From Sorangiineae bacterium NIC37A_2 (GTDB lineage: Bacteria; Myxococcota_A; Polyangia; Polyangiales; Polyangiaceae): a stretch of 33,083 nt of DNA. A program made the position numbers and the translations under genes. Positions 3,989 through 32,821 of the stretch are shown here, one piece after another (position 1 is the first letter of the stretch; every line of letters begins with the position of its first letter). The notes beneath the pieces were generated by a model, which worked only from the letters and a program-made list of their open reading frames with translations, ran no database searches and had not been told where the DNA came from. The DNA is taken from the NCBI GenBank assembly GCA_002085155.1, contig NASX01000025.1:38058-71140 (forward strand), given 5' to 3'.

Positions 3989-5263
3989 ATGAGAGAACCC
4001 ACCCTCCTTGGGCGCACAGCAGCGCGAGCAGCTCTTCCCTGGTTCACCGCTCTCATCGCCGCGGCTCAGCTCGGCTGCGAGGGAGCGAACGGAGGCGCGC
4101 CACCAAGCAAGGCCGAGCTCGGAGAGCTCCTCTTTCACGATCCGAATCTGTCGAAAGAGCGCACCCAATCTTGCGCCACCTGCCACGCGCCCGAAGCCGT
4201 CTTCACCGACCCAAGGCCTCTCGAAGGGGGAATCGCCGCGGCGTCCATCGGCGATGACGGCCAGTCCCTCGGGGATCGAAACGCGCCGAGCGCCATGTAC
4301 GCGGCCTTCATTCCTCCGCTCTCCCGAGGATCCCGCGCGAGGTTCCACACCGACCCTGAGATCTCCCTGTATGAAGGCTACCTCGGAGGAGTGTTCCTCG
4401 ATGGACGAGCTCGAGATCTTGCGGAGCAGGCGGGAGGTCCGCCGCTGAATCCGGTCGAAATGGGCATGCCGAGCGAAGAAGCGGTCGTGGCGAGGCTCCT
4501 CGAGGACGCAGAGTATCCTTCGATGTTTCGCGCGCTCTACGGCGAGGGAGTCTTCGACGACGCAAAGGTGGCCTACGCGGCGATGTCGGATGCCATCGCG
4601 GCTTTCGAGCGAACGGAAGCGTTCTCGCCCTTCGATTCCCGATACGACCGGTCGCTCCTGTCCAAGAGCGATCCCGCGCACTACGAATACCCTGAAGGCT
4701 CCCCCGCGGCCCGCGGCAGGGACCTGTTCTTCTCCACCGAGGCGACGAGCTGTTCCGCGTGCCACCTGATGCACCAAAGCGACGGACCCGATCGGGCACG
4801 GGAGCTTTTCTCGAGCTACGAGTACCACAATCTGGGGCTGCCGGAGAATCAGACCCTCAGGCGCCTCAACGGCGCAAAGACCGACCTAGGCCTCGGCGGG
4901 GTGCTCGATGATCCGACCCAGAACGGCAAATTCCGCGTGGGAACCCTGCGCAACGTCGCGCTCACCGGACCCTATATGCATAACGGCGTCTTCCAGAATC
5001 TCTCGACCGTCATCCTTTTCTACGAACATGCAAAGAAGCGGGCGCGAGGAGAATCCGACGCGTCACAGAACCCGGAGACCGGCGAGAGTTGGGCCGAACC
5101 TGAAGTGGATGAAAACTTGAGTACGGCCGAGCTGAGCCGCGGCAGCGAAGATCTGTCCCGGGCGGAGAACCTGCTCGCGCTCGAATGTTTCCTGGTTTCG
5201 TTGACGGACGCCCGCTACGAATCAGCTCTGCCACCGTCCCTCGTGGCACGCTGTGGCTTGTGA
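3989..5263 (+). CDS. Di-heme cytochrome c peroxidase / MauG-family protein
   Basis: From the ATG at 3989 the product is 424 aa. The N-terminus is a signal peptide (MREPTLLGRTAARAALPWFT, then ALIAAAQLGC), with Cys possibly lipidated although the lipobox is imperfect. Two haem c attachment motifs are present, CATCH (62-66) and CSACH (255-259), with the family signature GPYMHNG around Met330 near the second haem. GELLFHDPNLS and RNAPSAMYAAF are typical of the family. Such enzymes sit in the periplasm and reduce H2O2 with electrons from small cytochromes, or act MauG-like on other substrates. The acidic Glu/Ser-rich stretch near residues 350-385 is an insertion relative to classical CcpA. An upstream GTG at 3803 is rejected because it would bury the signal peptide. 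No strong Shine-Dalgarno is seen at 3989. The gene ends 29 nt before modA but is probably functionally separate. Confidence 0.88.
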   Translation: MREPTLLGRTAARAALPWFTALIAAAQLGCEGANGGAPPSKAELGELLFHDPNLSKERTQSCATCHAPEAVFTDPRPLEGGIAAASIGDDGQSLGDRNAPSAMYAAFIPPLSRGSRARFHTDPEISLYEGYLGGVFLDGRARDLAEQAGGPPLNPVEMGMPSEEAVVARLLEDAEYPSMFRALYGEGVFDDAKVAYAAMSDAIAAFERTEAFSPFDSRYDRSLLSKSDPAHYEYPEGSPAARGRDLFFSTEATSCSACHLMHQSDGPDRARELFSSYEYHNLGLPENQTLRRLNGAKTDLGLGGVLDDPTQNGKFRVGTLRNVALTGPYMHNGVFQNLSTVILFYEHAKKRARGESDASQNPETGESWAEPEVDENLSTAELSRGSEDLSRAENLLALECFLVSLTDARYESALPPSLVARCGL

Positions 5264-8073: not shown

Positions 8074-8736
8074 TCAGGAGCCGAGCGCGCGAGGAAAGAG
8101 GATGTTGTTTTCGAGGTGGATGTGCTCCATGAGCTCGGACTCGAGCTTTTGTAGGCTGCCGTAGAGGGCGCGCCAAGTCGCACAAGCCTCCCGCGGGGGA
8201 CGATAATCCGTACACAGCTCGCGCAGCGCCCTCAGGGTCTCGCCGTGATCGTCATGCTCCTGCATGAGCACACGCACGGGCATGTGCATGCTGGACGTGG
8301 GACCTCGGCTCACGATGGCAGGAAAAAGGATCTGTTCCTCTTTGGCCATGTGGTGACGAAGCTCCCGATCGAGCACCGCCAGCTGATCGGCGAGTCCATG
8401 GGGGCAGCTCTCTTTATTGCCGTGCACTCGCTCGACGCGCGCAGCCGCGTCGATGAGGGCCGGCAGAGTGGAGCGGTGAGCGTCGTGGTAGTGAAAGACA
8501 ATGTAGTCGATGAGCTCGGGGAGCGGCCTTTGGTCCCAGCGAACCGGAACACTCGGCGCCTCCTCGGCGAAAATCTCCGCGATGACATGTTCGGGGTTCA
8601 GCCCTGCCTTCTGGCAAGCGTCCTCGAGCTTCTGTCGACCACCGCAGCAGAAGTCGAGGCGATAGCGGAGGAAAACGCGAGTGGAGGCGGGGTGGGTAGC
8701 GGCGACGTCGCCCAGGGTTTGTTCGGTGCTGATCAT
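8074..8736 (-). CDS. ytfE: Iron-sulfur cluster repair di-iron protein (YtfE/RIC/ScdA family)
   Basis: A 220-aa product from the ATG at 8736. That start is preferred over the ATG at 8742 because AGGAG (8747-8743) lies 6 nt before the former and abuts the latter. The N-terminal ScdA_N domain has the pattern TLGDVAATHPASTRVFLRY and the conserved CCGG with Cys30-Cys31. The C-terminal hemerythrin-like four-helix domain supplies di-iron ligands in FHYHDAHR, LRHHMAKEEQILFPA, LMQEHDDHGE and LMEHIHLENNILFP. The length equals the family norm (about 220). The protein restores Fe-S clusters damaged by NO or oxidants in the cytoplasm. It is divergent from norR, with a sigma-54 promoter in between, which makes NO-dependent control very likely. 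The CopD-like gene follows in the same transcription unit. Confidence 0.93.
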   Translation of the reverse strand: MISTEQTLGDVAATHPASTRVFLRYRLDFCCGGRQKLEDACQKAGLNPEHVIAEIFAEEAPSVPVRWDQRPLPELIDYIVFHYHDAHRSTLPALIDAAARVERVHGNKESCPHGLADQLAVLDRELRHHMAKEEQILFPAIVSRGPTSSMHMPVRVLMQEHDDHGETLRALRELCTDYRPPREACATWRALYGSLQKLESELMEHIHLENNILFPRALGS

Positions 8737-8790
8737 GGTCATCTCCTTTTCGGCATCTCCTCTTTCAGAGGGTCCTTGCCTCTCCCTGAG

Positions 8791-16202: not shown

Positions 16203-16260
16203 AGGTGCCCTGTGCTTATTGCGCCCGCTTCATTTTTGAGATGCGCTCCCAGAACCCTCG

Positions 16261-16280
16261 CTTGGGGAGGTCTCCCCAAG
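16261..16280. promoter_or_regulatory. 20-bp dyad just upstream of the P-type ATPase start
   Basis: CTTGGGGAGGTCTCCCCAAG has perfect 9-bp arms around a GT centre and ends 11 nt before the ATG at 16292. With a 2-nt centre it suits a dimeric DNA-binding regulator (for example a metal sensor) better than an RNA hairpin. The left arm also holds the only Shine-Dalgarno-like GGGGAGG in the leader. Confidence 0.5.
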
Positions 16281-16291
16281 TGCCCGAATCC

Positions 16292-19000
16292 ATGTCGACG
16301 ACACAAACTCCTTGGCACTCCCTCAGCGCCGAAAAGACCCTCGACACCGTCCAGTCGTCGGCGAGCGGTCTCTCCTCTTCTGAGGCCGAAAAGCGCCTGG
16401 AGCGAGACGGGCCAAACGCCCTCTCCGAAGGACGCGGCGTCTCCTGGGTTCGAAAGCTCCTCGAACAGTTCATTGAACCGCTCGTCGTCGTGCTGCTCGG
16501 CGCGGCTGGACTCTCGGTCTTCTTGGGAGATTACGTCGACGCCGGCGTCATTTTCGCGGTGGTCCTTTTGAACGGCCTCATCGGCTTCTTCCAGGAGTAC
16601 CGCGCCGAACAATCCATCGCTGCCTTGTCGAAGGCGATCCTGACAGAGGCGACGGTCCTTCGGGACGACCAGCTCCAGCGCATCCCGAGCGAACGGCTCG
16701 TCGTGGGAGATATCGTCGCTCTGCAGTCGGGAGACACGGTGCCTGCCGATCTCAGGCTGCTCGAGGTCCGCGATCTGAAGGTCGAAGAAGCAGGCCTCAC
16801 CGGAGAGTCGGTGCCGTCGGCGAAGAACGAAGCAGTTCTGCCCGCGGACACGGGCATCGGCGATCGGGAGAACATGGCTTTTGCAGGCTCTTCCGTGACC
16901 TACGGGGTGGCCCGAGGCGTCGTCGTCGCGGTCGGTGACACGACGGAGATGGGCAGGATCGCCGACCTCATGGCCTCAACCAAGGCCCTCGAGACCCCCC
17001 TCACCCGCCGCATCGCGCAGCTCTCTCGCCTCCTGGTCTGGGTCATCCTCGGGCTCGCGGGAGCGCTCCTCATCGTTCAATGGCTGCGAGGCATCTCGCC
17101 CGTCGAGACCTTCAACACGGCGATCGCTCTCGCCGTTGGGGCCATTCCGGAAGGACTTCCCGCCGCGGTCACGATCGTGCTCGCGGTCGGCGTCTCTTCC
17201 ATGGCGAAGCGGGGCGCGCTCATCCGAAGGCTGCCCGCGGTCGAAACCCTCGGGAGCACGACGGTCATCTGCTCCGACAAGACGGGCACTTTGACCGAGA
17301 ACCAGATGACCGTCACGACCATCACCGCAGGCGGTGAGACGTTCCATCTCACAGGTGTTGGTTTTTCGGCGAAAGGTGAGCTCCTCCGCGAAGATCAGAG
17401 CAAGGTCACCCCGGACGTCTCGGCAGCGCTCTTCGAGGCGCTCACCTGCGGCGCCCTCTGTAACGACACACGTCTCGTCGAAACTGACGAAGGCCACAAG
17501 GTCGAAGGAGATCCGACGGAGGCCGCGCTCACAGTGGCCGCCGGAAAAGCCGGCCTCGGCGCCCAAAAACTCGCGGACCGGCCCCGCCGGGACGCGCTGC
17601 CCTTCGAGTCCGCTCACATGTACATGGGCTCGCTCCATCAGACTCCTGGGGACGCCGTCCTCTATGTGAAAGGTTCGACGGACACCCTGCTCGGCCGATG
17701 TGTCGACCGTCTCTCCGCCGGCGGCGCTTCCGAGCCCTTGGACGTGGCCGCGGTGCAGCGCGACGTTCATGACATGGCGAGCCGAGGGCTACGTGTCCTC
17801 GCGATGGCGCGGCGCACGATGCCGGCGGATAGGACGACCCTCAGCCACGACGACGTGCGCGATCTGACCTTCCTCGGCCTCGTGGGCATGATCGATCCGC
17901 CCCGCGAAGAGGCGAAGCGCGCAGTCCTTGCCTGTCTCCAAGCAGGCATCATGGTCAAGATGATCACCGGCGACCATGCCATCACGGCCGCCGCCATCGC
18001 CATGGAACTCGGGCTTGAAGGTGAGCGCACCGAAGACGGTCGCCTCCGCGCCCTCACCGGCGCTGAGCTCGCGACGCGGAGCGAAGAAGAACTCGCCGAA
18101 GTCGCCAATAGCGCCTCGGTGTTCGCGCGCGTCGCTCCGGAACAGAAGCTCTCCTTGGTCCGCGCGCTTCAGTCCCGGGGCCACGTCGTCGCCATGACCG
18201 GTGACGGCGTGAACGACGCGCCCGCTCTCAAACAGGCGGACATCGGCGTCGCCATGGGCAAAAACGGAACCGATGTCGCGCGCTCCGCCTCCTCGATGAT
18301 CCTGACCGACGATAACTTCGCGACCATTGCCGCGGCAGTCGAAGAAGGCCGCGGCATCTACGACAATCTCGTGAAGTTCATCGCCTGGACCTTGCCGACG
18401 AACGGCGGCGAGGGGCTTGTGCTCCTCGCCGCGGTGGTGTTCGGGACGACATTGCCGGTGCTCCCGGTGCAGCTGCTCTGGGTCAACCTCGCCACAGCAC
18501 TACTCGGAACGGCCTTGATCTTCGAGCCGCGCGAACCTGGGCTCATGCAGCGCGCGCCCCGGCCCGCCCACGCGCCCATCTTGGACGGCGCGCTCGCCGT
18601 CCGCACAGCGCTCGTCTCCCTCGCGGTCGGAGGCGCAGCTTTTGGCTGCTTTTGGTGGGCCAAGTCCACAGGTGCTTCGGTGGAGGCGAGCCGCACCATC
18701 GCCTTGAACACGATCGTGGTGGTCGAAGTCGGCTACCTCTTCGCTTGCCGCAGTTTGACCTTCACTTCGAACACGATCGGCTTCTTCACGAACAAGAGCG
18801 TGTGGCTCGGAGCCATCGCCATGTTCCTGCTCCAGCTCGGCATGACCTACATCCCGCTCATGAACAGCCTCTTCCACACCGCTCCGATCGAGCCCTGGTG
18901 GTGGGCCACCATGACGGCCATCGGCTTCGCCGTCTTCCTTTTGGCAGAGCTCAAGAAGGCGCTGCTCAAGCCCGAGCCTGTGACCATCAAGACGCGCTGA
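16292..19000 (+). CDS. P2-type cation-transporting ATPase (CtpF/PacL-like)
   Basis: A 902-aa pump from the ATG at 16292. The actuator motif is TGES (170-173), the phosphorylated Asp329 lies in DKTGTLTENQMTV, the hinge is TGDGVNDAPAL (636 on), and helix 4 carries AIPEGLPAAVT. The N-terminal LDTVQSSASGLSSSEAEKRL is the cation-ATPase N domain. By alignment to SERCA in my head, the helix 4 Glu (309) and helix 5 Asn/Glu (768/771, in TNGGE) are kept, while helix 6 reads VNLATALLG, so the Ca2+ ligand Asp800 is replaced by Ala. This resembles the mycobacterial CtpF/cyanobacterial subgroup, and the ion (Ca2+, Na+ or Mn2+) is open. The earlier start at 16205 is rejected because the extra residues look non-native and cross the dyad. 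It is convergent with another P-type ATPase, 35 nt away. Confidence 0.9.
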   Translation: MSTTQTPWHSLSAEKTLDTVQSSASGLSSSEAEKRLERDGPNALSEGRGVSWVRKLLEQFIEPLVVVLLGAAGLSVFLGDYVDAGVIFAVVLLNGLIGFFQEYRAEQSIAALSKAILTEATVLRDDQLQRIPSERLVVGDIVALQSGDTVPADLRLLEVRDLKVEEAGLTGESVPSAKNEAVLPADTGIGDRENMAFAGSSVTYGVARGVVVAVGDTTEMGRIADLMASTKALETPLTRRIAQLSRLLVWVILGLAGALLIVQWLRGISPVETFNTAIALAVGAIPEGLPAAVTIVLAVGVSSMAKRGALIRRLPAVETLGSTTVICSDKTGTLTENQMTVTTITAGGETFHLTGVGFSAKGELLREDQSKVTPDVSAALFEALTCGALCNDTRLVETDEGHKVEGDPTEAALTVAAGKAGLGAQKLADRPRRDALPFESAHMYMGSLHQTPGDAVLYVKGSTDTLLGRCVDRLSAGGASEPLDVAAVQRDVHDMASRGLRVLAMARRTMPADRTTLSHDDVRDLTFLGLVGMIDPPREEAKRAVLACLQAGIMVKMITGDHAITAAAIAMELGLEGERTEDGRLRALTGAELATRSEEELAEVANSASVFARVAPEQKLSLVRALQSRGHVVAMTGDGVNDAPALKQADIGVAMGKNGTDVARSASSMILTDDNFATIAAAVEEGRGIYDNLVKFIAWTLPTNGGEGLVLLAAVVFGTTLPVLPVQLLWVNLATALLGTALIFEPREPGLMQRAPRPAHAPILDGALAVRTALVSLAVGGAAFGCFWWAKSTGASVEASRTIALNTIVVVEVGYLFACRSLTFTSNTIGFFTNKSVWLGAIAMFLLQLGMTYIPLMNSLFHTAPIEPWWWATMTAIGFAVFLLAELKKALLKPEPVTIKTR

Positions 19001-19035: not shown

Positions 19036-21612
19036 TCAGCCTGCTCTGCTGTGCGCGCGTCCGCGTCGAACGGCCTTGATTAGCTCGAACCAGCCGACGC
19101 TCAAAAAGGCGGCCAGGGTCGCCGCGAGGAAATCTCCGAACGCCAAGGGAGCGAAGTGAAACAGGCTTCGGGCCGCCGGCACGAGGAGCACGATCCCGAG
19201 CAGAGTCAGACTCGCGATCATGACCCAGCGCAGCGCCGGGTTCCGTGCCTTGAGACTCGACCAGGCCGAGCTCGTCCAAGAACGGTTGATGAAGATGAGC
19301 GCGAGCGATCCGAGCACCAAGGTCGCAAACGAGAGGCCCCGCGCCGCATCCACCGGATACCGCTCGAGCGCGAGCCAGAGGACGAGAAGGCTCGCAGCCA
19401 AGACACCGACCCCCTGAAGCACCGAAATCGCAACGGTGTCCCAGCCGAAGAGATGTTCATCGCGACGCCGGGGTGGACGCCTCATTACGTCCCCCTCTTC
19501 GGGCTCCGCCTCAAACACGAGGGAGCAGGTCGGATCGATGATGAGCTCGAGGAACACGATGTGGGCCGGGAAAAGGAGCAGAGGCCAGCTCGGAATGAAC
19601 ACAGGCAGCATCGAGAGGCCAATGATCGGCACGTGCACGGCCAAGATGAACGCGATGGCCTTCTTGATGTTGTCGTAAATGCGACGACCGAGCCGAATCG
19701 CGTGAGCGATCGACGCGAAGTCGTCGGTCAGAAGGACGAGGGAGGCCGCTTCCCGAGCGACATCGGTACCCCGCTGGCCCATGGCGATACCGATGTGGGC
19801 GCTCTTGAGCGCCGGGGCATCGTTCACTCCGTCGCCCGTCATCGCGACAATCTCTCCAGCAGCCTTGAGAGCGTTCACGATGCGCAGCTTCTGTTCCGGA
19901 ACAACCCGAGCGAAGACCCGCACCGAGCGCACCTCTCGAACGAACGCCTCATCGCTCATGCGATCGATCTCTGCGCCCGTCATGATCCGTTCGATGGGCC
20001 CGATGCCCGCGCGCTCCGCGACGGTGCGCGCCGTTTTGGGGTAGTCGCCGGTGATCATGACGACCCGAAGGCCCGCGGCGGCGCACTCCTGGACCGCATC
20101 GCGTACGCCCTCACGCAACGGATCTTCGAGCGCCAAGAGCCCGAGGAACTCGAGAGGAAGGTCTCGCTGGCTCTCGCCGAGCGCATCCGGACGCGTCCGC
20201 CCCCGGGCCACACCGAGCACCCGCAGCCCCCTCTCCGCAAGCTCTTCCGTAGCGTGAATCAGCTCTTGTCTTTTGGCGCCCGCGACGCCACAGAGCTCTA
20301 AGATCGCCTCGGGAGCGCCCTTCGTCGCGATGAAGAGCTCATCACTCACCGTGGTCTGATAGACCTGGGTCACGGCGAGCAGCTCGCGAGTGAGCGGGTA
20401 CTCTCGATAAAGGGGCCACTCGAGCTTTCCTGTCGGAGCGAGAGCCGGGAGCGCCGCCAACTGGATCGCCTTCTCCATCGGATCGAAAGGCTCGCGGCGG
20501 CTCGCGAAGAAGGCCGACTCGAGGACAATCTGGGCCTCTTCGCTGAGCGCGTCTCCCTCCCCGAGCGACGTGACGACTCCGCCCGTGACCACCTTCCTGA
20601 CGGTCATCCGGTTCTCCGTCAGGGTCCCCGTTTTATCGACGCAGAGCACATTCGCTGCCCCCAGCGTCTCGATCGCAGCCGTACGCCGCGTGAGCACCTG
20701 GCTCTTCGAGATGCGATAGGCGCCGAAGGCGAGAAAAACGGTCAGAACAACGGGAAACTCCTCCGGCAGGATGGCCATGGCGAGCGCGATGCCCCCGAGC
20801 AGCCCTTGCTTCCATTCATGAGCGCCCCCGCCGCGGGTGAGCGCGTAGGTGACTACGACAAGAGCACAAGCGACAGCACCCGCGATCGCAAAGATCCGCA
20901 CCAGGCGACGGGTCTCTTTTTGGAGCTGGGTCGCTTCGGGCTTCACCTGCCGCAGCACGTCGCCGATATTGCCGAGGGCTGAGCGAGTCCCGACGGCGAC
21001 CACCTCCGCAATCCCCTGGCCCCCGGTCACGAGCGTTCCGGAGAAGACCGACGAGAGGTCATCGCCCCCTGGCTTTTCGAGGTCCTTTCGTGTCGCGCTC
21101 GCCTGTTTGCGCACGGGAACCGACTCTCCCGTCAGCAGCGATTCGTCGACGACGAGATGTTCACTCCGGCGCATCACGCCGTCCGCTGGCACACGGTCTC
21201 CTTCGGACAAGACCACAAGATCGCCGCGCACCACCTCGGTTCCCGCGATGCGCCGCGCCTCCCCCTCTCGAATGACAAGGGCCTGAGGGCCAGAAAGTTC
21301 TCGGAGCGCCTCAATGGCTCGCTCGGTGCGACGCTCTTGGAAGATCGTGATGGCCATGATGACCAAGACGAAAAAGAGCAGCATCAAGGCGTCCCGGGTT
21401 TCGCCCATCATCAGGTAGAGAGAACCTGCCGCGAGCAGCATCAAGAACATCGGCTCCCGCAGCACCTCGAGGACAATCGCAAACCATCCGCGAGGCTCGT
21501 CCATCGCAAGCGCGTTCGGGCCGTCCGTGCGGAGCCGAAGCTCAGCTTCGCTCTCGGAGAGTCCCGAAAGGTCCGCGCCCACCGAGACGTGCTTATCAGC
21601 GGTCGGGTTCAT
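19036..21612 (-). CDS. P2-type cation-transporting ATPase, PEEFPV subgroup
   Basis: An 858-aa pump if started at the ATG at 21612, MNPTADKHVSVGADLSGLSE. A longer frame reaches a TTG at 21804, but that would overlap the divergent ldhA start and adds a Glu/Ala-rich leader without family character. Motifs: LLTGES in the actuator, Asp326 in DKTGTLTENRMTV, and MTGDGVNDAPALKSAHIGIAMG. Helix 4 reads ILPEEFPVVLTVFLAFG in place of PEGLP, and helix 6 FLELIIDPTCSLVFEAEPEE places acidic residues at the positions of SERCA Asn796 and Asp800. The subgroup is widespread in bacteria with uncertain ion. It sits in the inner membrane. The different ion-site residues relative to the neighbour at 16292-19000 suggest that the two pumps handle different cations. 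Confidence 0.88.
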   Translation of the reverse strand: MNPTADKHVSVGADLSGLSESEAELRLRTDGPNALAMDEPRGWFAIVLEVLREPMFLMLLAAGSLYLMMGETRDALMLLFFVLVIMAITIFQERRTERAIEALRELSGPQALVIREGEARRIAGTEVVRGDLVVLSEGDRVPADGVMRRSEHLVVDESLLTGESVPVRKQASATRKDLEKPGGDDLSSVFSGTLVTGGQGIAEVVAVGTRSALGNIGDVLRQVKPEATQLQKETRRLVRIFAIAGAVACALVVVTYALTRGGGAHEWKQGLLGGIALAMAILPEEFPVVLTVFLAFGAYRISKSQVLTRRTAAIETLGAANVLCVDKTGTLTENRMTVRKVVTGGVVTSLGEGDALSEEAQIVLESAFFASRREPFDPMEKAIQLAALPALAPTGKLEWPLYREYPLTRELLAVTQVYQTTVSDELFIATKGAPEAILELCGVAGAKRQELIHATEELAERGLRVLGVARGRTRPDALGESQRDLPLEFLGLLALEDPLREGVRDAVQECAAAGLRVVMITGDYPKTARTVAERAGIGPIERIMTGAEIDRMSDEAFVREVRSVRVFARVVPEQKLRIVNALKAAGEIVAMTGDGVNDAPALKSAHIGIAMGQRGTDVAREAASLVLLTDDFASIAHAIRLGRRIYDNIKKAIAFILAVHVPIIGLSMLPVFIPSWPLLLFPAHIVFLELIIDPTCSLVFEAEPEEGDVMRRPPRRRDEHLFGWDTVAISVLQGVGVLAASLLVLWLALERYPVDAARGLSFATLVLGSLALIFINRSWTSSAWSSLKARNPALRWVMIASLTLLGIVLLVPAARSLFHFAPLAFGDFLAATLAAFLSVGWFELIKAVRRGRAHSRAG

Positions 21613-21778
21613 CTTGATGTCACTCACCGGAAACGAATTCCCACTTCTAGCATCTATCGTCCCCGCTTTCGCTTCCGAACCCTCGACTTCGCCCGCTTGC
21701 GCTTCACTCTGCCTCTGAACATACTCCGCCGGTGTCACAGGGCGCCATCGGCGCTCGAATCGGAGAGGAGCATCGCGC

Positions 21779-24846: not shown

Positions 24847-26388
24847 TCAAGGCTCTTCGGGAAGAAATGCCTCAGGCGAAACCATGGGTGCGCCTCGCAA
24901 GGTCACAGTTGTGTTCTCGGTGGCCGTCTTTCGGAAGAAGATAGGTGCGCTCAGCTCAACCGCTCCTGTGCTTCCCGAGAATGTCGTCTCCTTCGCGAAA
25001 GCTGTGTCGAGAGTGAGCGCCTCCGGATCGTTACAGTCTGCGCCGTTCACCCCGGTGAGCCAAAGAACGAAAGATGGAGCGCGAGTCGCGTCGCCATCGT
25101 GCAGATCGAAACAGGCAGTCGTCCCGCTCCGGATCGATGAAGCGCCTTCCGCGTACGTCACAGCGTTCCCCGCGTAGTTCGCCGAGATGGAAGCGGTCGC
25201 CGGATCCGTCTGACCGCCGTAGAAGAGTGCGCGGAACTGGCCGGCAGCGACGGCTGGGGAGGCCACCGTCGGTGCTTCGGCGAACCCGAAGACCAGCTGC
25301 GTCGTGCCGTGCATCGGTGACAGGAGATCCTCGATCTTGACGTGACGAACTGGTCCTTCAAAGGCGCAGGCGACGTCGACGAACGACCCGCTGATTGTGA
25401 CCTCTTGGGAGCATTCAAGGGGCAAGAAGGCGCTCAAGTCGAGGGCGCTCGCATCGAACACCGTGACCGTGGCGTCGCCGCCCGGCTGCCGAAAGAAGAC
25501 CTGAGAGTCCAAGATCGAGGACACCTCTGCTCCTCCCCAATAGACCTCCCGGGCCCAGGCACTCTCAAGCGTCAATGTGTCCCAATCTCCGCAGTCTGCT
25601 CCCTTCTCGCCGTCCCGCCAGAGCACAACATGAGGCGGAAGGGTCTCGGAGCCTGGATGGAGATCGAGGCAAACCGCGGAACTTTGGTGTAAGAAGTCCG
25701 CTGCCGAGGACAGAGTGCTCTCTTCATCGCCGGCGTAGACAACGAGCTGCGGGTTCGGGCTTCCGCCGGGACCTCCGCCATAAAACAGCACACGAAGTTG
25801 TCCTTCGTCGGTGGCGGGCTGCGAGCTCTCCGGCGCCGAGGAGAAACCGAATAGGAGCTGACTCGAGCCGTGGAATGAGCTCGCGACAAGTCCTTCGATT
25901 CGGACGTGGCGCACTGATCCCGCGACCGGGCACGGGATGGCGAAAGCAGAAGTCGCTGCGACCTTGGCGGTGCATGTGTGGTTCGTGATGGCAGGCGCGC
26001 CACCGGATCCTTCCCCTCCACTCGCCGCAGCCCCACCGGACGGGGCCGCTCCCCCGAGACCCCCACTTCCCCCGGCGGGCGTCTCTCCCTTGGACCCACC
26101 GCTGCTCCCCCCGCCGCTCAGGACGCCCCCGGATCCCGGGTCCAGCTCACCTCCCATTCCCTCGCCCCCCGTGCCCCGGCCGGACTTGCCTCCCGTGCCT
26201 CGCGCGGTTCCCCCCGCTCCGCTGCCGTTTTTGCGCCCACCGCCCGCACCCACGTTTCCGCCAGAGGCTTCACTCGTGTCGTCCCCTCCAGCATCGGCCC
26301 CAGCATTATCGCAAGCGCCTGTCATTATCAACGAGAGAACGCTCGTCATCAGCGCGAGGTGACGGTTGGAAAGTGCAAGTGTTTTCAT
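24847..26388 (-). CDS. Tandem-duplicated lipoprotein with Gly-rich linker, unknown family
   Basis: A 513-aa lipoprotein from the ATG at 26388, with GAAGGA 6 nt upstream; a TTG 15 nt earlier is unlikely. The signal ends MTGAC with probable lipidated Cys26. Residues ~27-135 are a low-complexity Gly/Ser/Ala linker. Then two homologous domains of about 185 residues each follow: RHVRIEGL...HGSSQLLFGFSSAPE...GQLRVLFYGG (from ~159) and RHVKIEDLL...HGTTQLVFGFAEAP...GQFRALFYGG (from ~347). Each contains a later motif of the form VCLDLHPGSETLPPHVVLW or ACFDLHDGDATRAPSFVLW, then GADC and FFR. Paired cysteines suggest disulfides and a beta-rich fold. I do not recognise a family. It is divergent from the TonB receptor, sharing the Fur-box-like region, so a surface role in iron/haem capture is a reasonable inference. 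Confidence 0.78.
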   Translation of the reverse strand: MKTLALSNRHLALMTSVLSLIMTGACDNAGADAGGDDTSEASGGNVGAGGGRKNGSGAGGTARGTGGKSGRGTGGEGMGGELDPGSGGVLSGGGSSGGSKGETPAGGSGGLGGAAPSGGAAASGGEGSGGAPAITNHTCTAKVAATSAFAIPCPVAGSVRHVRIEGLVASSFHGSSQLLFGFSSAPESSQPATDEGQLRVLFYGGGPGGSPNPQLVVYAGDEESTLSSAADFLHQSSAVCLDLHPGSETLPPHVVLWRDGEKGADCGDWDTLTLESAWAREVYWGGAEVSSILDSQVFFRQPGGDATVTVFDASALDLSAFLPLECSQEVTISGSFVDVACAFEGPVRHVKIEDLLSPMHGTTQLVFGFAEAPTVASPAVAAGQFRALFYGGQTDPATASISANYAGNAVTYAEGASSIRSGTTACFDLHDGDATRAPSFVLWLTGVNGADCNDPEALTLDTAFAKETTFSGSTGAVELSAPIFFRKTATENTTVTLRGAPMVSPEAFLPEEP

Positions 26389-26440
26389 GATTTTCCTTCG
26401 CAAGGTTTGTGCTCGTTGTCGTTGCCGTTTGCTCTTTTTT

Positions 26441-26459
26441 GATAATGCCTTTCATTACC
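26441..26459. promoter_or_regulatory. Fur-box-like operator between the divergent lipoprotein and TonB receptor genes
   Basis: GATAATGCCTTTCATTACC matches the classical 19-bp Fur consensus at 14 of 19 positions and contains the dyad TAATG-N5-CATTA. It lies in an unusually AT-rich stretch of this GC-rich region, 47 nt before the receptor ATG and 53 nt before the divergent lipoprotein ATG. GATAAT could also serve as a -10 element with TTGTCG about 19 nt upstream. Iron repression of both directions is inferred. Confidence 0.55.
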
Positions 26460-26505
26460 TATTGCAATTAGAATCACCCTAGGTATTTCAGCGGGGCCTC
26501 ATCCC

Positions 26506-28542
26506 ATGCGCAGCTTGCCCCTTGTCCTCGCGAACTCGCTCCTGCTGTACGCAGGATCTGCTCCGGCGGCGGCCGGGCCAGAAGCGACCATGGAGGCTTC
26601 TGCCGGACGAGACGGCTCCTCGTCAGAAGGCGCGGACGACGCGCCCTCTCCCAGCGTTCCCCTTGACGCTCCGTCTCTCCCAGCAGAGGGCGACGCGAGC
26701 GCCTCAGAACCTCCCGCGGTCGACGTCGTGGTCACCGGATCCCGGACTCACGAATCGCGCAAGTCGAGCGTCATGGCGACACAGGTCATCGGGAGCGCCG
26801 AGATGCGCCAAACCGGCGCGACCACCCTCGATGGTGTTCTCGAGGCGCAACCCGGGCTCCAGATCGAGCGCACCTTCCGCGGCAGTGAGCTCTGGTTTCG
26901 CGGTCTCGATCCTGAATACACGCTGATCCTCGTCGATGGCCAGAGAGTCCCTGGACGAGTCGGCGGGGCTGTCGATCTCGGTCGCTATTCCTTGGAGGCG
27001 GTGGAGCGCGTCGAGATCGTACGCGGCCCGTCATCAGCTCTTTATGGGTCTGACGCGATCGGAGGTGTGGTCAATCTCATCACTCGCGAGAGTCACCACG
27101 AGCTCGAAGCCGAGGCGGAAGGGCGGATTTTCACCCAGGATGCGCTCGCTTTCTCCGGCCGCGTTTCCGGACGCCCGGCGGAAGCTCTCGGCATTTCGCT
27201 CAGCGCGGGGCACCAGCGCCGCGCCCCCTTTCGGCGCGATCCAGACTCGACCGCGACCACGGGAAGCGGGCTCCGCCTCGACACCGCCGGCGCAACACTC
27301 ACGGTGGGCCGCGTGAACCAAGGACGCGTCCGACTGAGCGCCGACTATTCGCGCACCCGACTCGACGGTGTCGACGAAGGAGCGGGGCGCGCCATCTTCG
27401 ATCGAACCCAGCTCCAAGAGCAGGCGACGCTCAGGGCCTCCTACGACAAGCGCTCTCAGACGCTCAGCCTGCAGAGCGGTGCTTCGTACTCCCAGTTTCG
27501 GGAACAGTACCTCACCGATCAAAGAGGGAGCGTCGCCCTCGACAGTTATCAAGACAACCGCGAACACCAGGGCCTCCTGCACACGGTCGTCAGCTCGACC
27601 TGGGACCGGAGCCACCGCACCACAGTCGGCGGCGAAATTCTTGGGCAAATCCTCGATTCCCAGCGTCTCCGCAGCCGCGGCACGCGCACCCGCTACTCTG
27701 CCTTTGCGGAGCATCGCGTCGCTTTGTACGCCGAAGACCGAGAGCTCATCGCCGTCGTGCTCGGCGCTCGCGCCGACATCGATTCGCAGTTCGGCTCCCA
27801 GCTCTCCCCCAAGCTCGCGTTCAAGTGGGACCCCTGGGACTTTCTCACCGTGCGTGCCGGCTATGGGCGAGGTTTTCGCGCCCCTTCGTTCCAGGAGCTC
27901 TTGCTTCGCTTCGAGAACGCAGCTGTGGGCTACGTCGTCTCCGGGAATCCAGACCTTCGCGCGGAATCCTCCCACAGCGTCGATCTCGGAATGGAATACC
28001 GACCGCACCGCGACTGGCTCGCTTCGGTGACCCTCTTCCGAAACGACCTCTCCGATATGATCACAACCGAGCTGGCGGGGACGTCCTCGGACTCGGGGAC
28101 GCTCTTCTCCTACCAAAACGCCGCAAACGCGCGCACCCAGGGCATCGAGTCCCAAGTGAATTGGGCTCCGAGCTCGTTCTTTCGTAGCAGCGTCGGCTAC
28201 ACGTTGACCGAGACCTGGAATAGCGAGCTCGAGCGTCCTCTCACAGGTCGCCCTCTCCATCGCTTCTTCGCCCGCTCGTCCGTCGTTGTCCCTGGCATCG
28301 AGCTCGACCTGAGCGGGCGCGCCACCTTGTCCCTCGAGCGGAAGTTTTACGAAGAGCTCGCGGACGGAAGCACTCACACCATCACCGCAGAGCCATTGCT
28401 CCAGATTGATCTCCGCATGAGCCGCGCGTTCAGCGACGAGTTTGAGCTGTTCGCCGGTGTGAACAACGTCGCCGAGGCGGGAGACGCATACGCCGCCCTT
28501 TTGCCCCGCCAGTTCTACGTCGGCCTCCGAGGCAGCTACTGA
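26506..28542 (+). CDS. TonB-dependent outer-membrane receptor, probable haem/iron uptake
   Basis: A 678-aa receptor. The signal peptide is MRSLPLVLANSLLLYAGSAPA (cleavage near AAA); an Ala/Ser/Glu-rich spacer follows, then a TonB-box-like VDVVVTGSR (72-80). The plug domain is clear: MRQTGATTLDGVLEAQPGL, LWFRGLDPEYTLILVDGQRVPG, RVEIVRGPSSALYGSDAIGG and VVNLITR. The barrel follows, with FKWDPWDFLTVRAGYGRGFR, APSFQELLLRF and the C-terminal QFYVGLRGSY ending in Tyr. The length is typical of BtuB/CirA/HmuR-sized receptors. It imports a ligand across the outer membrane using TonB-ExbBD energy. The ligand is most likely haem because the next gene encodes a double HmuY-like lipoprotein 21 nt downstream, with an iron-type operator upstream. 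Vitamin B12 or a siderophore are alternatives. Confidence 0.9.
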   Translation: MRSLPLVLANSLLLYAGSAPAAAGPEATMEASAGRDGSSSEGADDAPSPSVPLDAPSLPAEGDASASEPPAVDVVVTGSRTHESRKSSVMATQVIGSAEMRQTGATTLDGVLEAQPGLQIERTFRGSELWFRGLDPEYTLILVDGQRVPGRVGGAVDLGRYSLEAVERVEIVRGPSSALYGSDAIGGVVNLITRESHHELEAEAEGRIFTQDALAFSGRVSGRPAEALGISLSAGHQRRAPFRRDPDSTATTGSGLRLDTAGATLTVGRVNQGRVRLSADYSRTRLDGVDEGAGRAIFDRTQLQEQATLRASYDKRSQTLSLQSGASYSQFREQYLTDQRGSVALDSYQDNREHQGLLHTVVSSTWDRSHRTTVGGEILGQILDSQRLRSRGTRTRYSAFAEHRVALYAEDRELIAVVLGARADIDSQFGSQLSPKLAFKWDPWDFLTVRAGYGRGFRAPSFQELLLRFENAAVGYVVSGNPDLRAESSHSVDLGMEYRPHRDWLASVTLFRNDLSDMITTELAGTSSDSGTLFSYQNAANARTQGIESQVNWAPSSFFRSSVGYTLTETWNSELERPLTGRPLHRFFARSSVVVPGIELDLSGRATLSLERKFYEELADGSTHTITAEPLLQIDLRMSRAFSDEFELFAGVNNVAEAGDAYAALLPRQFYVGLRGSY

Positions 28543-28563
28543 CCCCTTCCCAAGGAACCTCCC

Positions 28564-29844
28564 ATGCGCTCTCTCCTTGCCCCTCTCCTCTTCTCCATGC
28601 TGTCCGCGAGCTGCGCCGAACGGCTCGTCGCCACCAACAACGGAACCGAAAGCGCGGGCGGCGGGGCGAACGGTGGCCCGGTTCAAGGCCCCGCGCTCCC
28701 AAGAAAAAGCGGCAACTTCGAGCACGAAGTGCTTGAGGACGGATCCGTCCGGACCCGCGTCGACGCCACCGATACGGAGGCCTGGCAACGGCTCGATCTC
28801 GACACAGGCAGCGCGGATGACTCCGCCTGGGACCTTCAGTTTCGTCGGTTCTACGTGCTGTCAAACGGAGGGGTTACGGGAAAAGGAGGCGTCCGCTCGC
28901 TGAAACTTACGGACGCCCAGTTCGAAGAGGTCGTCGCTGTTCCGGAGGGCGCCCAGTTTCGCGTCGACACTGAGGACGCCGAGGACGAGGGGGACGTGTT
29001 CGACAGCGTCTTCAACGACGGGCTCGACGACTGGTACGACTACGCTCTCGCTCACCACACGCTGACCTCGCGCGGCTACGTCTACATTGTTCGCTCGACG
29101 GAGCGCCGCTACTTCAAGCTTACCCTCGAAGATTACTACGACGACGTGGGCACGTCGGGGATCGTGACATTTCGCTGGGCTCGCCTCGACAGTCCCGACG
29201 AGCCGGCGGACGAATCGCCTGACGACGAGGAAGGACCGCCGGAAGGCGACGCGCCGGAAGGGAATACGCCGGACGATGAGCCTCCGGCCGAAGAGCAGCC
29301 GCCCGACGAAGAGCCACCCGCTGAGGAGCCGATCGACGAAGAGCCGTCGGACGACGACCGGCCTGGCGACGAGCCCGGCGACCTGGTTCGATACTCGGTC
29401 GACGCAACGAGCTACGAGCTCATGACCTACGTGTCCCTCGAGCACGGCGTGCTCCCACCGGACGCAGAGAGCGCAAGCCTCGCCTGGGATCTTGCTTTCC
29501 TCCGCTACAACCTCTTCACGAACAGCGGGACAAGCGGGCCTGGCCAAGGAGGAGCCAAGCTCGACGACTCCGGTCTTCCTTACGAAGAACTCATGAGCGT
29601 GAGTCCCGATGGTTTTGTAGCCGACGAGGTTCTTCCCGCGGACGGAGCTCCCGGTTCCGTCGAAGGAACCAAGAACTCCGTGCTCCAAGACTGGTACGAC
29701 TACCAAGGCCTCGGCGCGCTCACCCCCAAGGCGCAAACGTTCGTCATCCGCACCGCCACCGGAACCTATGGAAAGCTCCGCATTTGGCGCTACGCGAGCG
29801 GCGTCTTCGAAATCTCCTTCCTCCCTGTCTCGGTCGAGAACTGA
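28564..29844 (+). CDS. Tandem HmuY-domain lipoprotein, haem-binding (hemophore-like)
   Basis: A 426-aa lipoprotein with an AAGGA ribosome site about 7 nt upstream. The signal is MRSLLAPLLFSMLSASC with lipidated Cys17 likely. Two HmuY-like domains are visible: domain 1 (~45-208) with WDLQFRRFYVLSNGGVTGKG, GLDDWYDYALAHHTLTSRGY and DDVGTSGIVTFRWARLD, and domain 2 (~274-426) with WDLAFLRYNLFTNSGTSGPG, VLQDWYDYQGLG and TGTYGKLRIWRYASGVFEIS. They are joined by an acidic, Pro-rich linker (209-273) rich in DEPPAEE units. In Porphyromonas HmuY, single-domain surface lipoproteins bind haem and pass it to receptor HmuR. Haem ligand histidines cannot be assigned here by eye. The operon with the TonB receptor upstream and the kelch lipoprotein 23 nt downstream supports a haem-scavenging role. 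Confidence 0.88.
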   Translation: MRSLLAPLLFSMLSASCAERLVATNNGTESAGGGANGGPVQGPALPRKSGNFEHEVLEDGSVRTRVDATDTEAWQRLDLDTGSADDSAWDLQFRRFYVLSNGGVTGKGGVRSLKLTDAQFEEVVAVPEGAQFRVDTEDAEDEGDVFDSVFNDGLDDWYDYALAHHTLTSRGYVYIVRSTERRYFKLTLEDYYDDVGTSGIVTFRWARLDSPDEPADESPDDEEGPPEGDAPEGNTPDDEPPAEEQPPDEEPPAEEPIDEEPSDDDRPGDEPGDLVRYSVDATSYELMTYVSLEHGVLPPDAESASLAWDLAFLRYNLFTNSGTSGPGQGGAKLDDSGLPYEELMSVSPDGFVADEVLPADGAPGSVEGTKNSVLQDWYDYQGLGALTPKAQTFVIRTATGTYGKLRIWRYASGVFEISFLPVSVEN

Positions 29845-29867
29845 TCCTCATGCCCCAAGGAAATCTG

Positions 29868-31910
29868 ATGAAACGCTTCCCCTCCCTCTCCTCTCCGCTC
29901 CTCGGCTACGCCGCATTGCTGCTCGCTGCGTGTTCGGCACAAACGCCCCCTCCTGCCTCGAGCCCCGCCCCGAAGGCTGCCTCGGAGCCGGAGCAGACTT
30001 CGGTCGTTCACGACGAAAGCGCAAAGTCTGAACCCCGAGTGCTCGTCGCTGACAAAGTGCGCACGTCGGGGGCGCTCTTGCCTCCCTTGCCCGTCGCGGT
30101 GACGAGCTTCGGCGCCGCCGCCGCGAGTGACGCGCTCTACGTGGTCGGCGGCTACTCGGGAACTCCCCACGCCTACTCTCGCGAAGGACAGTCGAAGGCG
30201 GTCCTCGAGTATCGCAGCGGCGAGGCGGGCTGGCAGAAAATCGCGGAGCTGCCCGAGGGCCTCCAGGGCCTCGCGAGCGTCCTTTTTGGTCGTGAGCTCT
30301 GCTCTTTCGGGGGGAGCCACGCGGAGAACGCAGCGTCAGAGGCGACGATCATGAAGTCGAGGGCCCGGGCCCTCTGTCTCGACCTGGACAAAAAGACTTG
30401 GCGCGAGCTGCCAGACCTTCCCGCGCCTCGTTCGTCCCACGCCGCCGCCCTCATTGGCAGTACCGTATACGTCACGGGTGGTTGGAGCCTCTCGGGTCGC
30501 CCGGACAGCGGCGTCTTCACTTCCGAGCTCGCGCTGCTTGACCTCTCCTCAAAGACGCCGACCTGGAAGGCGCTCCCGGCTCCTTTCCAAAGGCGCGCCC
30601 TCGCCGTCGCAGGAGTAGGACAGAACCTCGTGGTCGTCGGCGGTATGTCCGAAGAGGGGCGACCGACCGCCAAGACGGACGTTTACGATGCGCGCTCGGG
30701 ACAATGGTCCAGCGCCCCGGACTTTCCTGGCGACGCCTTCGGAATCGCCGCCTCTAGCCTCGGTGATCGCGTGTACGCCTCCGGCCGTGAAGGAATCCTT
30801 TATTCCTATCGTCCGGGAGACAAAGAGTGGATCCGAGTACGTACGCTCGCCTACGGTCGATTCTTCCACCAGCTCGTTCCCCAGGGCGGAGAGCTCGTCG
30901 CCCTGGGAGGGATCGGCGGCATGCACACCCGCGGCCGGACACGGGTCATCGAGAAGATTCCGCTCAGCGGCCTCTCCTACGGTCAGCTCACCGTCGAGTC
31001 ACCGATGAGCGCGAAGAACCGCCAAGGATACTTCGTGAGCGGCGAGGAAGTTTATCTCTTCGGCGGGAACCGAAGCCTGGAACAACACGACTTCGAGCGC
31101 GAACACTTCACGAGTGAAGGTTGGTCCTTCGATCTCGCTACGCTGACCTTTACGGAAGCCGCGCCTTTCCCCTACCGCCGCCAGAGCATGCAGACGATCG
31201 CGACAGAAGGAGGCGGGCTTGCGCTCGGGGGCTTCGGACACGAACCCCTCACGAGCCCGGAGAGCCAGGCCGTCTCCCACCCCGAGGTGTTTCGCTTCTA
31301 CGCAGAAGAGGGCCGGTGGTCAGAGGATGGCGCGTTCCCGCGCGGGCGGACCCAGTTCGGCGTAGCTCAGAACGAACGCGGTTTGTTCGTGCTCGGCGGC
31401 CTGAACTACGACCCGAGTCGCAAGAACGCTTTCGAGCACGATCGCTCGATCTGGCGCCGCGCTCCCTCGAGCGCGACCTTCGAGACCTTGGAGGTGACAT
31501 TGCCCGGTCCGCGGCGCGCCTTCGCTGGCGCGCAGATCGCCGACAAGTACTACATGGTCGGGGGCATGAAGGAGAACTTCGAGCTCGCGCCTGATTGCCA
31601 GATCTTCGACCTCCAGACGGAGACGTTCGAGAGTATGCCCTGTCCGGCCGCTCGTCTCTCCGGCGATCTGATCCCTGCCGGCGGAAAGCTCTATCTCCTC
31701 GGCGGTTCGGTGAAGCGAGGCGACGCTCTCACCGAAAGCGACGAGGTCGAGGTCTTCGATCCCGCGAAGAAAACCTGGTCAAAGCTCCCCTTTCAGCTCC
31801 CACTCCCCGTGCGACACCTCCGAGCTTTCCCCTACCGCGACCAGATCTTGCTCCTCACGACCCACTCACCACAAAGTGAGCTGACGATGGCGCTCCTCTC
31901 GCCCCAATGA
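29868..31910 (+). CDS. Kelch/beta-propeller lipoprotein
   Basis: A 680-aa lipoprotein from the ATG at 29868 with AAGGA 7 nt upstream; the longer frame starting at 29784 runs inside the previous gene. The signal is MKRFPSLSSPLLGYAALLLA then AC, with Cys22. After an Ala/Pro/Ser-rich spacer come about twelve kelch-type blades with the double-Gly mark: YVVGGYSG, CSFGGSH, VYVTGGWS, LVVVGGMS, VYASGREG, LVALGGIGG, VYLFGGNR, LALGGFGH, FVLGGLNY, YYMVGGMK, YLLGGSVK and a last degenerate QILLLTTH. That is enough for two six-bladed propellers. Kelch propellers bind ligands or partners; there is no visible enzyme motif. As third gene of the TonB/HmuY operon, it may present or dock the haem-carrying partner at the surface, which is inference. 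A strong hairpin follows the stop. Confidence 0.8.
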   Translation: MKRFPSLSSPLLGYAALLLAACSAQTPPPASSPAPKAASEPEQTSVVHDESAKSEPRVLVADKVRTSGALLPPLPVAVTSFGAAAASDALYVVGGYSGTPHAYSREGQSKAVLEYRSGEAGWQKIAELPEGLQGLASVLFGRELCSFGGSHAENAASEATIMKSRARALCLDLDKKTWRELPDLPAPRSSHAAALIGSTVYVTGGWSLSGRPDSGVFTSELALLDLSSKTPTWKALPAPFQRRALAVAGVGQNLVVVGGMSEEGRPTAKTDVYDARSGQWSSAPDFPGDAFGIAASSLGDRVYASGREGILYSYRPGDKEWIRVRTLAYGRFFHQLVPQGGELVALGGIGGMHTRGRTRVIEKIPLSGLSYGQLTVESPMSAKNRQGYFVSGEEVYLFGGNRSLEQHDFEREHFTSEGWSFDLATLTFTEAAPFPYRRQSMQTIATEGGGLALGGFGHEPLTSPESQAVSHPEVFRFYAEEGRWSEDGAFPRGRTQFGVAQNERGLFVLGGLNYDPSRKNAFEHDRSIWRRAPSSATFETLEVTLPGPRRAFAGAQIADKYYMVGGMKENFELAPDCQIFDLQTETFESMPCPAARLSGDLIPAGGKLYLLGGSVKRGDALTESDEVEVFDPAKKTWSKLPFQLPLPVRHLRAFPYRDQILLLTTHSPQSELTMALLSPQ

Positions 31911-31927
31911 ACTCGCTCTGCGCTCGA

Positions 31928-31954
31928 AGGCGCTCGCCCCATGGGCGAGCGCCT
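31928..31954 (+). terminator. Strong hairpin terminating the TonB/HmuY/kelch operon
   Basis: AGGCGCTCGCCC (31928-31939) pairs perfectly over 12 bp with GGGCGAGCGCCT (31943-31954), with a CAT loop. It starts 18 nt after the kelch stop. There is no T-run, as often in GC-rich genomes. The rest of 31955-32140 shows no gene or other feature I can support. Confidence 0.7.
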
Positions 31955-32140: not shown

Positions 32141-32821
32141 TTACATCTGATAACACGCCCGCAGAGCGTCGCAGGCGGGGATGCCGGTGATGTCCGGCGG
32201 GGGACTGACGGTGTAAGCCTGAGCTTCCGAGTAGGCCATAGAACATCCGGGCACCGTCTCTGGAACCGGGACCGCAGCGACGCAGGACTTGTATTCACCG
32301 ACTGTAGCCGCGCAGCGCACAGTGGTGAGCAGGCCGAAGGCCTGGCACTCGAGATCGATCGTTCCATTGTCGCGAGACGCGATGCACGCGCCCCGCAGTC
32401 GCTCACACTCCGCAGCATAGTCCACCTCGGCGCCTTCCCGTGCCGTGAGCATCGCTCGAGCATCGCAGCGCTGATAGAGCATCTCTTCCGTCACGTCCGA
32501 AAGGCAGAGCGCCGCCGCCTCCTCCTGCGTCAGCTCGTCGAGCGTTCGGTCGTCGCCCGGAGGAGGAACCGACGACGCGTCCCCGCTCGCAGGCCCTTGG
32601 CTCCCTCCGCCGCTCCCCCCGGGATCCCCGCCGCCTCCACTGGCAGTCCCTGCGCCTCCGCTTGCTTCGGGATCGCCAGCGCCACCGCTCCCTGACGAGT
32701 CTCCGCCTCCCTCATTTCCCTCAGCCTGGCCACAGGACGCCTGAGTCAGCGCGCACCCGAGGCCCAAACAGAGAGTGAGGAGAGTGTGACGAGGGAGCGA
32801 GGGAAGACGAGGCGACGGCAT
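32141..32821 (-). CDS. Gly/Ser-rich lipoprotein with Cys-rich C-terminal domain, unknown function
   Basis: A 226-aa product from the ATG at 32821, with AGGA about 10 nt upstream. The N-terminus MPSPRLPSLPRHTLLTLCLG, then LGCALTQASC, looks like a lipoprotein signal, though the residues before the Cys (QAS) are a poor lipobox. Residues ~31-90 form a Gly/Ser/Asp-rich spacer (GGGDSSGSGGAG). The C-terminal ~130 residues are helical and hold ten cysteines (for example LCLSDVTEEMLYQRC, ECERLRGAC, CDALRACYQM) at spacings that suggest disulfide-linked helices. This style of small exported protein is common in Polyangia. No family function is recognised. It is convergent with the kelch operon and followed on its left by the 230-nt gap. 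Confidence 0.7.
   Translation of the reverse strand: MPSPRLPSLPRHTLLTLCLGLGCALTQASCGQAEGNEGGGDSSGSGGAGDPEASGGAGTASGGGGDPGGSGGGSQGPASGDASSVPPPGDDRTLDELTQEEAAALCLSDVTEEMLYQRCDARAMLTAREGAEVDYAAECERLRGACIASRDNGTIDLECQAFGLLTTVRCAATVGEYKSCVAAVPVPETVPGCSMAYSEAQAYTVSPPPDITGIPACDALRACYQM

Follow-up and report, generated by a model that had tools for sequence, protein, structure and literature searches.

A candidate iron-regulated haem acquisition island with an enlarged lipoprotein set in a myxobacterium

The genome of Sorangiineae bacterium NIC37A_2, a 5.0-Mb draft that is 98% complete, contains four neighbouring genes which we understand, with a probability of about three in four, as a haem acquisition island of the Hmu type, acting at the outer membrane under iron regulation and endowed with an enlarged set of lipoproteins. 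They lie in a stretch of 33,083 nucleotides (contig NASX01000025.1, positions 38,058 to 71,140), called here the window, in which the coordinates of the island are given. On the forward strand, genes for an HmuR-like TonB-dependent receptor of 678 residues (26506-28542), an HmuY lipoprotein of 426 residues (28564-29844) and a kelch lipoprotein of 680 residues (29868-31910) follow one another, and the operon ends with a G+C-rich hairpin (31928-31954) whose 12-bp arms, at 31928-31939 and 31943-31954, score z = -3.05 and are not followed by a T-run. A divergent lipoprotein gene occupies the reverse strand (24847-26388), its product displaying a Gly/Ser-rich linker and two copies of an undescribed domain of about 185 residues. 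A candidate lipobox cysteine can be seen in each of the lipoproteins: Cys26 in the divergent protein, Cys17 in HmuY and Cys22 in the kelch protein. A preliminary description of this DNA, made from the sequence alone, had proposed the four genes, their hairpin and an internal duplication in each lipoprotein. The open reading frames and the hairpin are indeed present at the positions it gave, and self-alignment is significant for the divergent, HmuY and kelch proteins alike (E = 3e-39, 1e-13 and 4e-10, respectively). The divergent gene is where it had been placed, with a start that had to be revised: the 518-residue version begins at a TTG, and the ATG at 26388 gives 513 residues.

What argues most strongly for a haem context of the island, as judged from related gene neighbourhoods, comes from spirochaetes. 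Outside Myxococcota, the family of the undescribed domain was searched in plasmid records, where a tblastn query with the divergent lipoprotein matched Leptospira biflexa p74 and Leptospira kobayashii pE30-1. The genes that matched are unannotated and lipoprotein-like, one in p74 (locus L200, 9863-10570) and two tandem copies in pE30-1 (locus L199, 8545-9276 and 9438-10247), and a hidden Markov model of the myxobacterial domain recovers these relatives with E = 5e-26 to 1e-21. They are located directly upstream, on the same strand, of genes for an HmuY family protein and a TonB-dependent receptor, and are divergent from haemin ABC-transporter and hemin-degrading (HemS) genes, the transporter genes of p74 being known as hemSTUV (PMC4863578). 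Both Leptospira receptors match the profile of the myxobacterial receptors with E < 1e-180. It is these haem loci, together with the co-occurrence of the genes among Myxococcota, that support the haem or iron acquisition island of the preliminary description. L. biflexa is a saprophytic and genetically tractable spirochaete, in which the role of the family is directly testable.

The two copies of the undescribed domain in the window (copy 1, 25423-25974; copy 2, 24850-25422; both on the reverse strand) are 38% identical over 186 residues; their alignment scores 120 bits, and none of 50 shuffles exceeded 18.5. Neither Pfam nor NCBIfam has a model that matches the domain, so that at the level of the Pfam search no BtuH-type (DUF4465) domain was seen; a PDB sequence search with the divergent lipoprotein and with its profile returned nothing relevant. 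An AlphaFold2 model of copy 1, built on seven sequences, has a predicted local distance difference test score (pLDDT) of 90.6 and a predicted template-modelling score (pTM) of 0.89. Compared with the carbohydrate-binding domain of ERGIC-53, this model gives a VIA Z of 10.7 and 3.3 Å over 150 residues, at 9% identity, and a Foldseek search with it found no match at E <= 0.001. The predicted fold is a concanavalin-A-like or galectin-like jelly-roll sandwich of the lectin/glucanase type, a statement about the fold only, which does not imply a lectin function. The cysteines of the domain are mostly conserved in the alignment.

Among 379 Myxococcota genomes, six hold this domain, four times beside the cassette of receptor, HmuY and kelch genes and twice at contig ends; three of the four linked genes are divergent, and one (in genome G169) lies downstream on the same strand. 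One may wonder whether receptor, HmuY and kelch make up a haem or iron unit by themselves, the divergent jelly-roll lipoprotein being a separate adhesin or lectin that shares the promoter. The lectin/glucanase-like fold, the opposite strand and the presence in so few genomes, which makes the domain dispensable, would fit this account. However, the G169 copy follows the cassette on its own strand, the Leptospira copy directly precedes HmuY in the same orientation, and within Myxococcota the domain was never found off the cassette except at contig ends, so that we hold such a separation to be quite improbable.

The neighbourhood of the operon is conserved as an island would have it. Counted at E <= 1e-60, relatives of the kelch protein occur in 16 of the 379 genomes, and HmuY and a receptor are present in the fetched neighbourhood of 15 of these, neither being found near kelch in the exception, G220; with the undescribed domain beside the cassette in four genomes out of six, the neighbours foreseen by the preliminary description are indeed conserved together. 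A scan of 84,980 species genomes yielded 21 strong kelch relatives, of which sixteen are accompanied by HmuY; one (L157) is cut by a contig end, with imelysin, di-haem oxidoreductase (DHOR), imelysin and HTTM genes next to it; four are without HmuY or receptor, three of them labelled Planctomycetota. Named bearers of the cassette include Enhygromyxa salina, Plesiocystis pacifica and Paraliomyxa miuraensis, and a kelch search in plasmid records gave no match. In a tree of the receptors, those linked to kelch form three supported groups round an unresolved core, which is compatible with one or possibly several origins of the cassette. Small genes with an RIWQV(D/E)C motif adjoin receptor-less kelch relatives (L163:3625-4092 and L166:9315-9911), and perhaps code for a conserved partner of these.

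The kelch protein itself, recognized by the Kelch models of Pfam, was described beforehand as a protein of twelve blades, perhaps in two propellers, and this agrees with what the modelling suggests. The model reaches pLDDT 94.0 and pTM 0.90; residues 87-368 (30126-30971, forward strand) superimpose on the Keap1 kelch domain 1x2j with Z = 34.6 and 1.6 Å over 258 residues, which predicts a six-bladed fold. Residues 369-680 (30972-31907, forward strand) hold further kelch repeats with profile matches to solved kelch propellers, and since the fold-match list was filled by the first half, the second propeller is read from model strands and these profile matches: the protein is probably built as 2 x 6 blades. 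Four histidines, His101, His334, His407 and His524, are invariant in 17 relatives, and three of the four are also kept in relatives that live without the receptor, which may point to an activity specific to the kelch protein itself.

Both domains of the HmuY lipoprotein (domain 1, 28777-29178; domain 2, 29410-29799; forward strand, with an acidic Pro-rich linker between them) are above the cut-off of PF14064, the whole protein scoring 100.9 bits for a cut-off of 27. The domains are 28% identical, and their profile finds HmuY of Porphyromonas gingivalis (3h8t, E = 6e-24). To have two of them is in no way unusual, and that idea was rejected: among 284 Myxococcota genomes sampled, 93 have HmuY, with 1-4 domain copies per protein, and copy numbers of 1, 2 and 3 coexist within the genus of the source organism. 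The duplications noticed in the preliminary description are real, but that of HmuY does not distinguish the island, and the contrast it drew with single-domain HmuY systems has to be corrected for this phylum, where multi-domain HmuY proteins are common.

A putative haem ligand could nevertheless be located. A histidine placed eight residues past the conserved Trp of a WYDY motif is present in 28 of 28 HmuY domains from haem-transport-linked loci, and was kept in 32 of 36 from kelch-linked loci. In a profile alignment, it falls on a Met of the Bacteroides homologue Bvu (3u22), 27 residues past Met127 of the chain; because this spacing is that from Met145 to Met172, the conserved His would correspond to the site of Bvu Met172. 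Mutagenesis supports Met145 and Met172 of Bvu as haem ligands (PMC7956564), and in proteins of this type the second Met is three sites away from the second His of HmuY, a His of P. levii being near the site (PMC6200708). Domain 1 of the window has His165 at this position, aligned with Bvu Met172, and domain 2 has a Gly. The lipoprotein does possess two HmuY domains, as had been noted, but since the second has lost the putative ligand, two equal haem sites are unlikely and were rejected as a candidate arrangement. Judged by these residues, haem is most likely carried by domain 1, via His165; domain 2 would probably serve for docking, or would bind the ring without an iron ligand, in the way some HmuY proteins bind porphyrin without coordinating its iron (PMC12106395).

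Elsewhere, at L058:11964-14470 (genome G223) and at seven further loci, a putative metalloprotease of the MXAN_6640 family (NF045524) is paired with a second, divergent lipoprotein of the HmuY type. The metalloprotease gene of L058 exceeds the NF045524 cut-off, and the pairing recalls the partnership of gingipain and HmuY. In several genomes this second HmuY-type gene sits between the receptor-HmuY pair and kelch.

Regulation by iron is suggested by the region that separates the divergent genes. These 117 bp are 56% AT, and only 0.15% of window stretches of equal length are as AT-rich; they contain, at 26441-26459, the best Fur-like match of the window, GATAATGCCTTTCATTACC, with one mismatch to GATAATG-N5-CATTATC, when 0.26 matches with at most three mismatches to the Fur-like consensus would be expected by chance in the whole window. 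The Fur-box-like AT-rich region that had been pointed out there is thus present. Upstream of receptors at large, some of them from the same genome, Fur-like boxes with at least 13 of 19 matches precede 33 of 53, against about 6% of random stretches. Both other genomes with the divergent arrangement (L146 and L147) have a box with 15 of 19 matches between the undescribed-domain gene and the receptor. A promoter scan of the intergenic region found no match.

How haem, or its iron, would cross the inner membrane is a further matter. About ten other receptor-HmuY loci of Myxococcota, whose receptors and HmuY proteins belong to the same families, adjoin genes for a Peripla_BP_2 protein, a FecCD permease and an ABC ATPase, many having HemS as well; a representative ATPase of these loci scores above the threshold that NCBIfam sets for 'heme ABC transporter ATP-binding' proteins, the fourth gene coding for HemS/ChuX. 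In the source genome, neither HemS nor a FecCD importer of the haem type was found, the HmuS family being outside this search. Ferrochelatase is present in 11 of 12 kelch-type genomes, and haem would therefore be a source of iron rather than cover for an auxotrophy. Imelysin-DHOR-imelysin genes, known as an iron-uptake set (PMC3143127), are found near the cassette in 6 of 16 genomes, the imelysin of the source genome lying elsewhere, and hint at an iron route. They stand directly downstream of kelch at L041:12359-17487, L101:12375-16308 and L157:2538-7747, followed in two cases by an HTTM/gamma-carboxylase-like gene. It is tempting to imagine that the kelch-type cassette does without an inner-membrane haem importer: haem would enter the periplasm, iron would be removed there, and would leave as free iron, with the participation of the kelch protein and, in relatives, of the imelysin and di-haem oxidoreductase set. 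Joined to this scheme, the jelly-roll family would be a new family binding haem or haemoproteins, common to Myxococcota and Leptospira. We regard this combination as rather doubtful.

Several observations weigh against haem uptake by the island as a whole. The receptor matches the plug and barrel models PF07715 and PF00593, but its best NCBIfam model, TIGR01785 (TonB-hemin), gives 173 bits, below the cut-off of 316.85, and among solved structures it is closest in sequence to the colicin I receptors. In HmuR and haem TonB receptors a ligand histidine is expected between the FRAP and NPDL motifs; in an alignment of receptors from kelch-linked and haem-transport-linked loci, the island's receptor has the invariant Tyr476 there and no His, and the haem-transport-linked receptors have no His either. 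On the side of HmuY, the second domain is devoid of the conserved His, and a candidate was found for only one of the two axial ligands: for the first (His134 or Met145) the alignment shows no conserved candidate, the ligand loop being an insertion relative to the myxobacterial profile. The kelch-type genomes tested are without HemS, except G260, where it belongs to a different HmuY locus; in 11 of 12, just one FecCD permease passes the cut-off of the family (G178 has two), and the only one of the source genome is part of a cobalamin-riboswitch operon with a TonB receptor. Finally, Planctomycetota and one myxobacterial genome have members of the kelch family with no receptor beside them.

The same facts invite us to consider that the island may serve iron uptake by way of a different ligand, either a ferric siderophore or some other metallophore, which would be bound by HmuY domains that have diverged and would enter through a Cir-like receptor. 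Colicin I receptors, the best sequence matches among solved receptors, import catecholate siderophores; the kelch-type genomes are deprived of HemS, and the imelysin-DHOR clusters near some cassettes are tied to iron, not to haem import. Yet the siderophore route, too, should require a FecCD importer, and the only one found in the source genome is in the cobalamin operon. In addition, kelch loci and haem-transport-linked loci have conserved residues in common, both in their receptors and in their HmuY domains, among them a receptor segment resembling ENPxxGYxVxGNPDL, with an invariant Tyr476 and no His, and the undescribed domain is at home in the haem loci of Leptospira. We find this alternative unlikely. 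Still less can be said for cobamide (vitamin B12) uptake by an island resembling BtuB-BtuG-BtuH. The cast of a TonB receptor, a propeller lipoprotein and a further, jelly-roll, ligand-binding lipoprotein is similar (PMC10404256), and the B12-receptor model TIGR01779 scores nearly as high on the receptor as the haemin model. However, an Rfam search of the window gave no match, hence no cobalamin riboswitch; contig C78 of the genome already carries a receptor operon that begins with such a riboswitch and includes a BtuC-like permease; the kelch protein is modelled with 2 x 6 blades where BtuG has seven; and HmuY and the HemS context of relatives speak of haem. The B12 island was rejected on the first two counts, and we think it most improbable. 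The operon of C78 (L186:1115-11303 in the source genome, G000) comprises, behind its riboswitch, the TonB receptor, a 450-residue protein without NCBIfam match, the FecCD permease, an ABC ATPase and an apparent methionine synthase.

We can now return to haem acquisition and picture how the four products would cooperate. Upon iron starvation, Fur would leave both divergent promoters, if the box is what it appears to be. The lipoproteins, presumably exposed on the outer membrane, would take up haem or haemoproteins, for example from lysed prey, and hand haem over to the HmuR-like receptor for import driven by TonB energy. HmuY domain 1 would bring haem to this receptor, whose capture or docking partners, perhaps capping it, would be the kelch lipoprotein with its double propeller and the protein with two jelly rolls, by analogy with the BtuG lid and with BtuH. 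A multivalent surface relay handing haem to the receptor is in this respect a coherent hypothesis.

The rest of the window contains, at 3989-5263, a di-haem cytochrome c peroxidase of the CCP/MauG family (PF03150); at 8074-8742, a protein with hemerythrin and ScdA_N domains, probably for iron-sulphur cluster repair; and two P-type cation ATPases encoded tail to tail (16241-19000, forward strand; 19036-21627, reverse strand). Convergent with the island, 32141-32821 encodes a lipoprotein-like protein, rich in Gly and Ser, which no family model matches above its cut-off.

HmuY-mediated haem uptake has been studied almost only in Bacteroidota, chiefly oral and gut species, and the island would extend it to myxobacteria; homologues of HmuY outside Bacteroidota have already been noted (PMC6200708). 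We found no relevant literature linking HmuY with kelch proteins or with Myxococcota. Uptake by HmuY and its receptor is known; what appears new, from sequence comparison, is two lipoprotein families travelling with it, of which we found no description, and which, lying beside haem receptors, offer testable new parts of haem uptake. The closest known system is hmuYRSTUV of P. gingivalis, where a TonB-dependent receptor gene also stands beside that of an HmuY-fold lipoprotein. The island adds a second HmuY domain and the kelch and jelly-roll lipoproteins, has no adjacent genes of the hmuSTUV type, and has its putative ligand His at the Met site of the Bacteroides homologues, not at His166 of P. 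gingivalis. The p74 locus of L. biflexa (hemSTUV, HmuY, TonB receptor and the hypothetical LBF_RS18525, which holds the undescribed domain) resembles it by the adjacent undescribed domain, HmuY and receptor of the same family, and differs by its single-domain copies, its adjacent haemin importer and HemS, and the absence of a kelch gene nearby. Imelysin-DHOR operons such as PA4370-4373 of Pseudomonas aeruginosa have genes that adjoin some kelch cassettes, but not in the source genome; kelch or TonB partners are not mentioned in their description (PMC3143127). The Bacteroides BtuB-BtuG-BtuH system is alike in outline, with its receptor, a propeller lipoprotein at the surface and additional lipoproteins that bind the ligand (PMC10404256, PMC8941943); BtuG is a single seven-bladed propeller, the ligand is B12, HmuY is absent and no sequence relation to the island was shown. 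The parallel between the two casts suggests that the uptake of tetrapyrroles with the help of lipoproteins may follow a general design.

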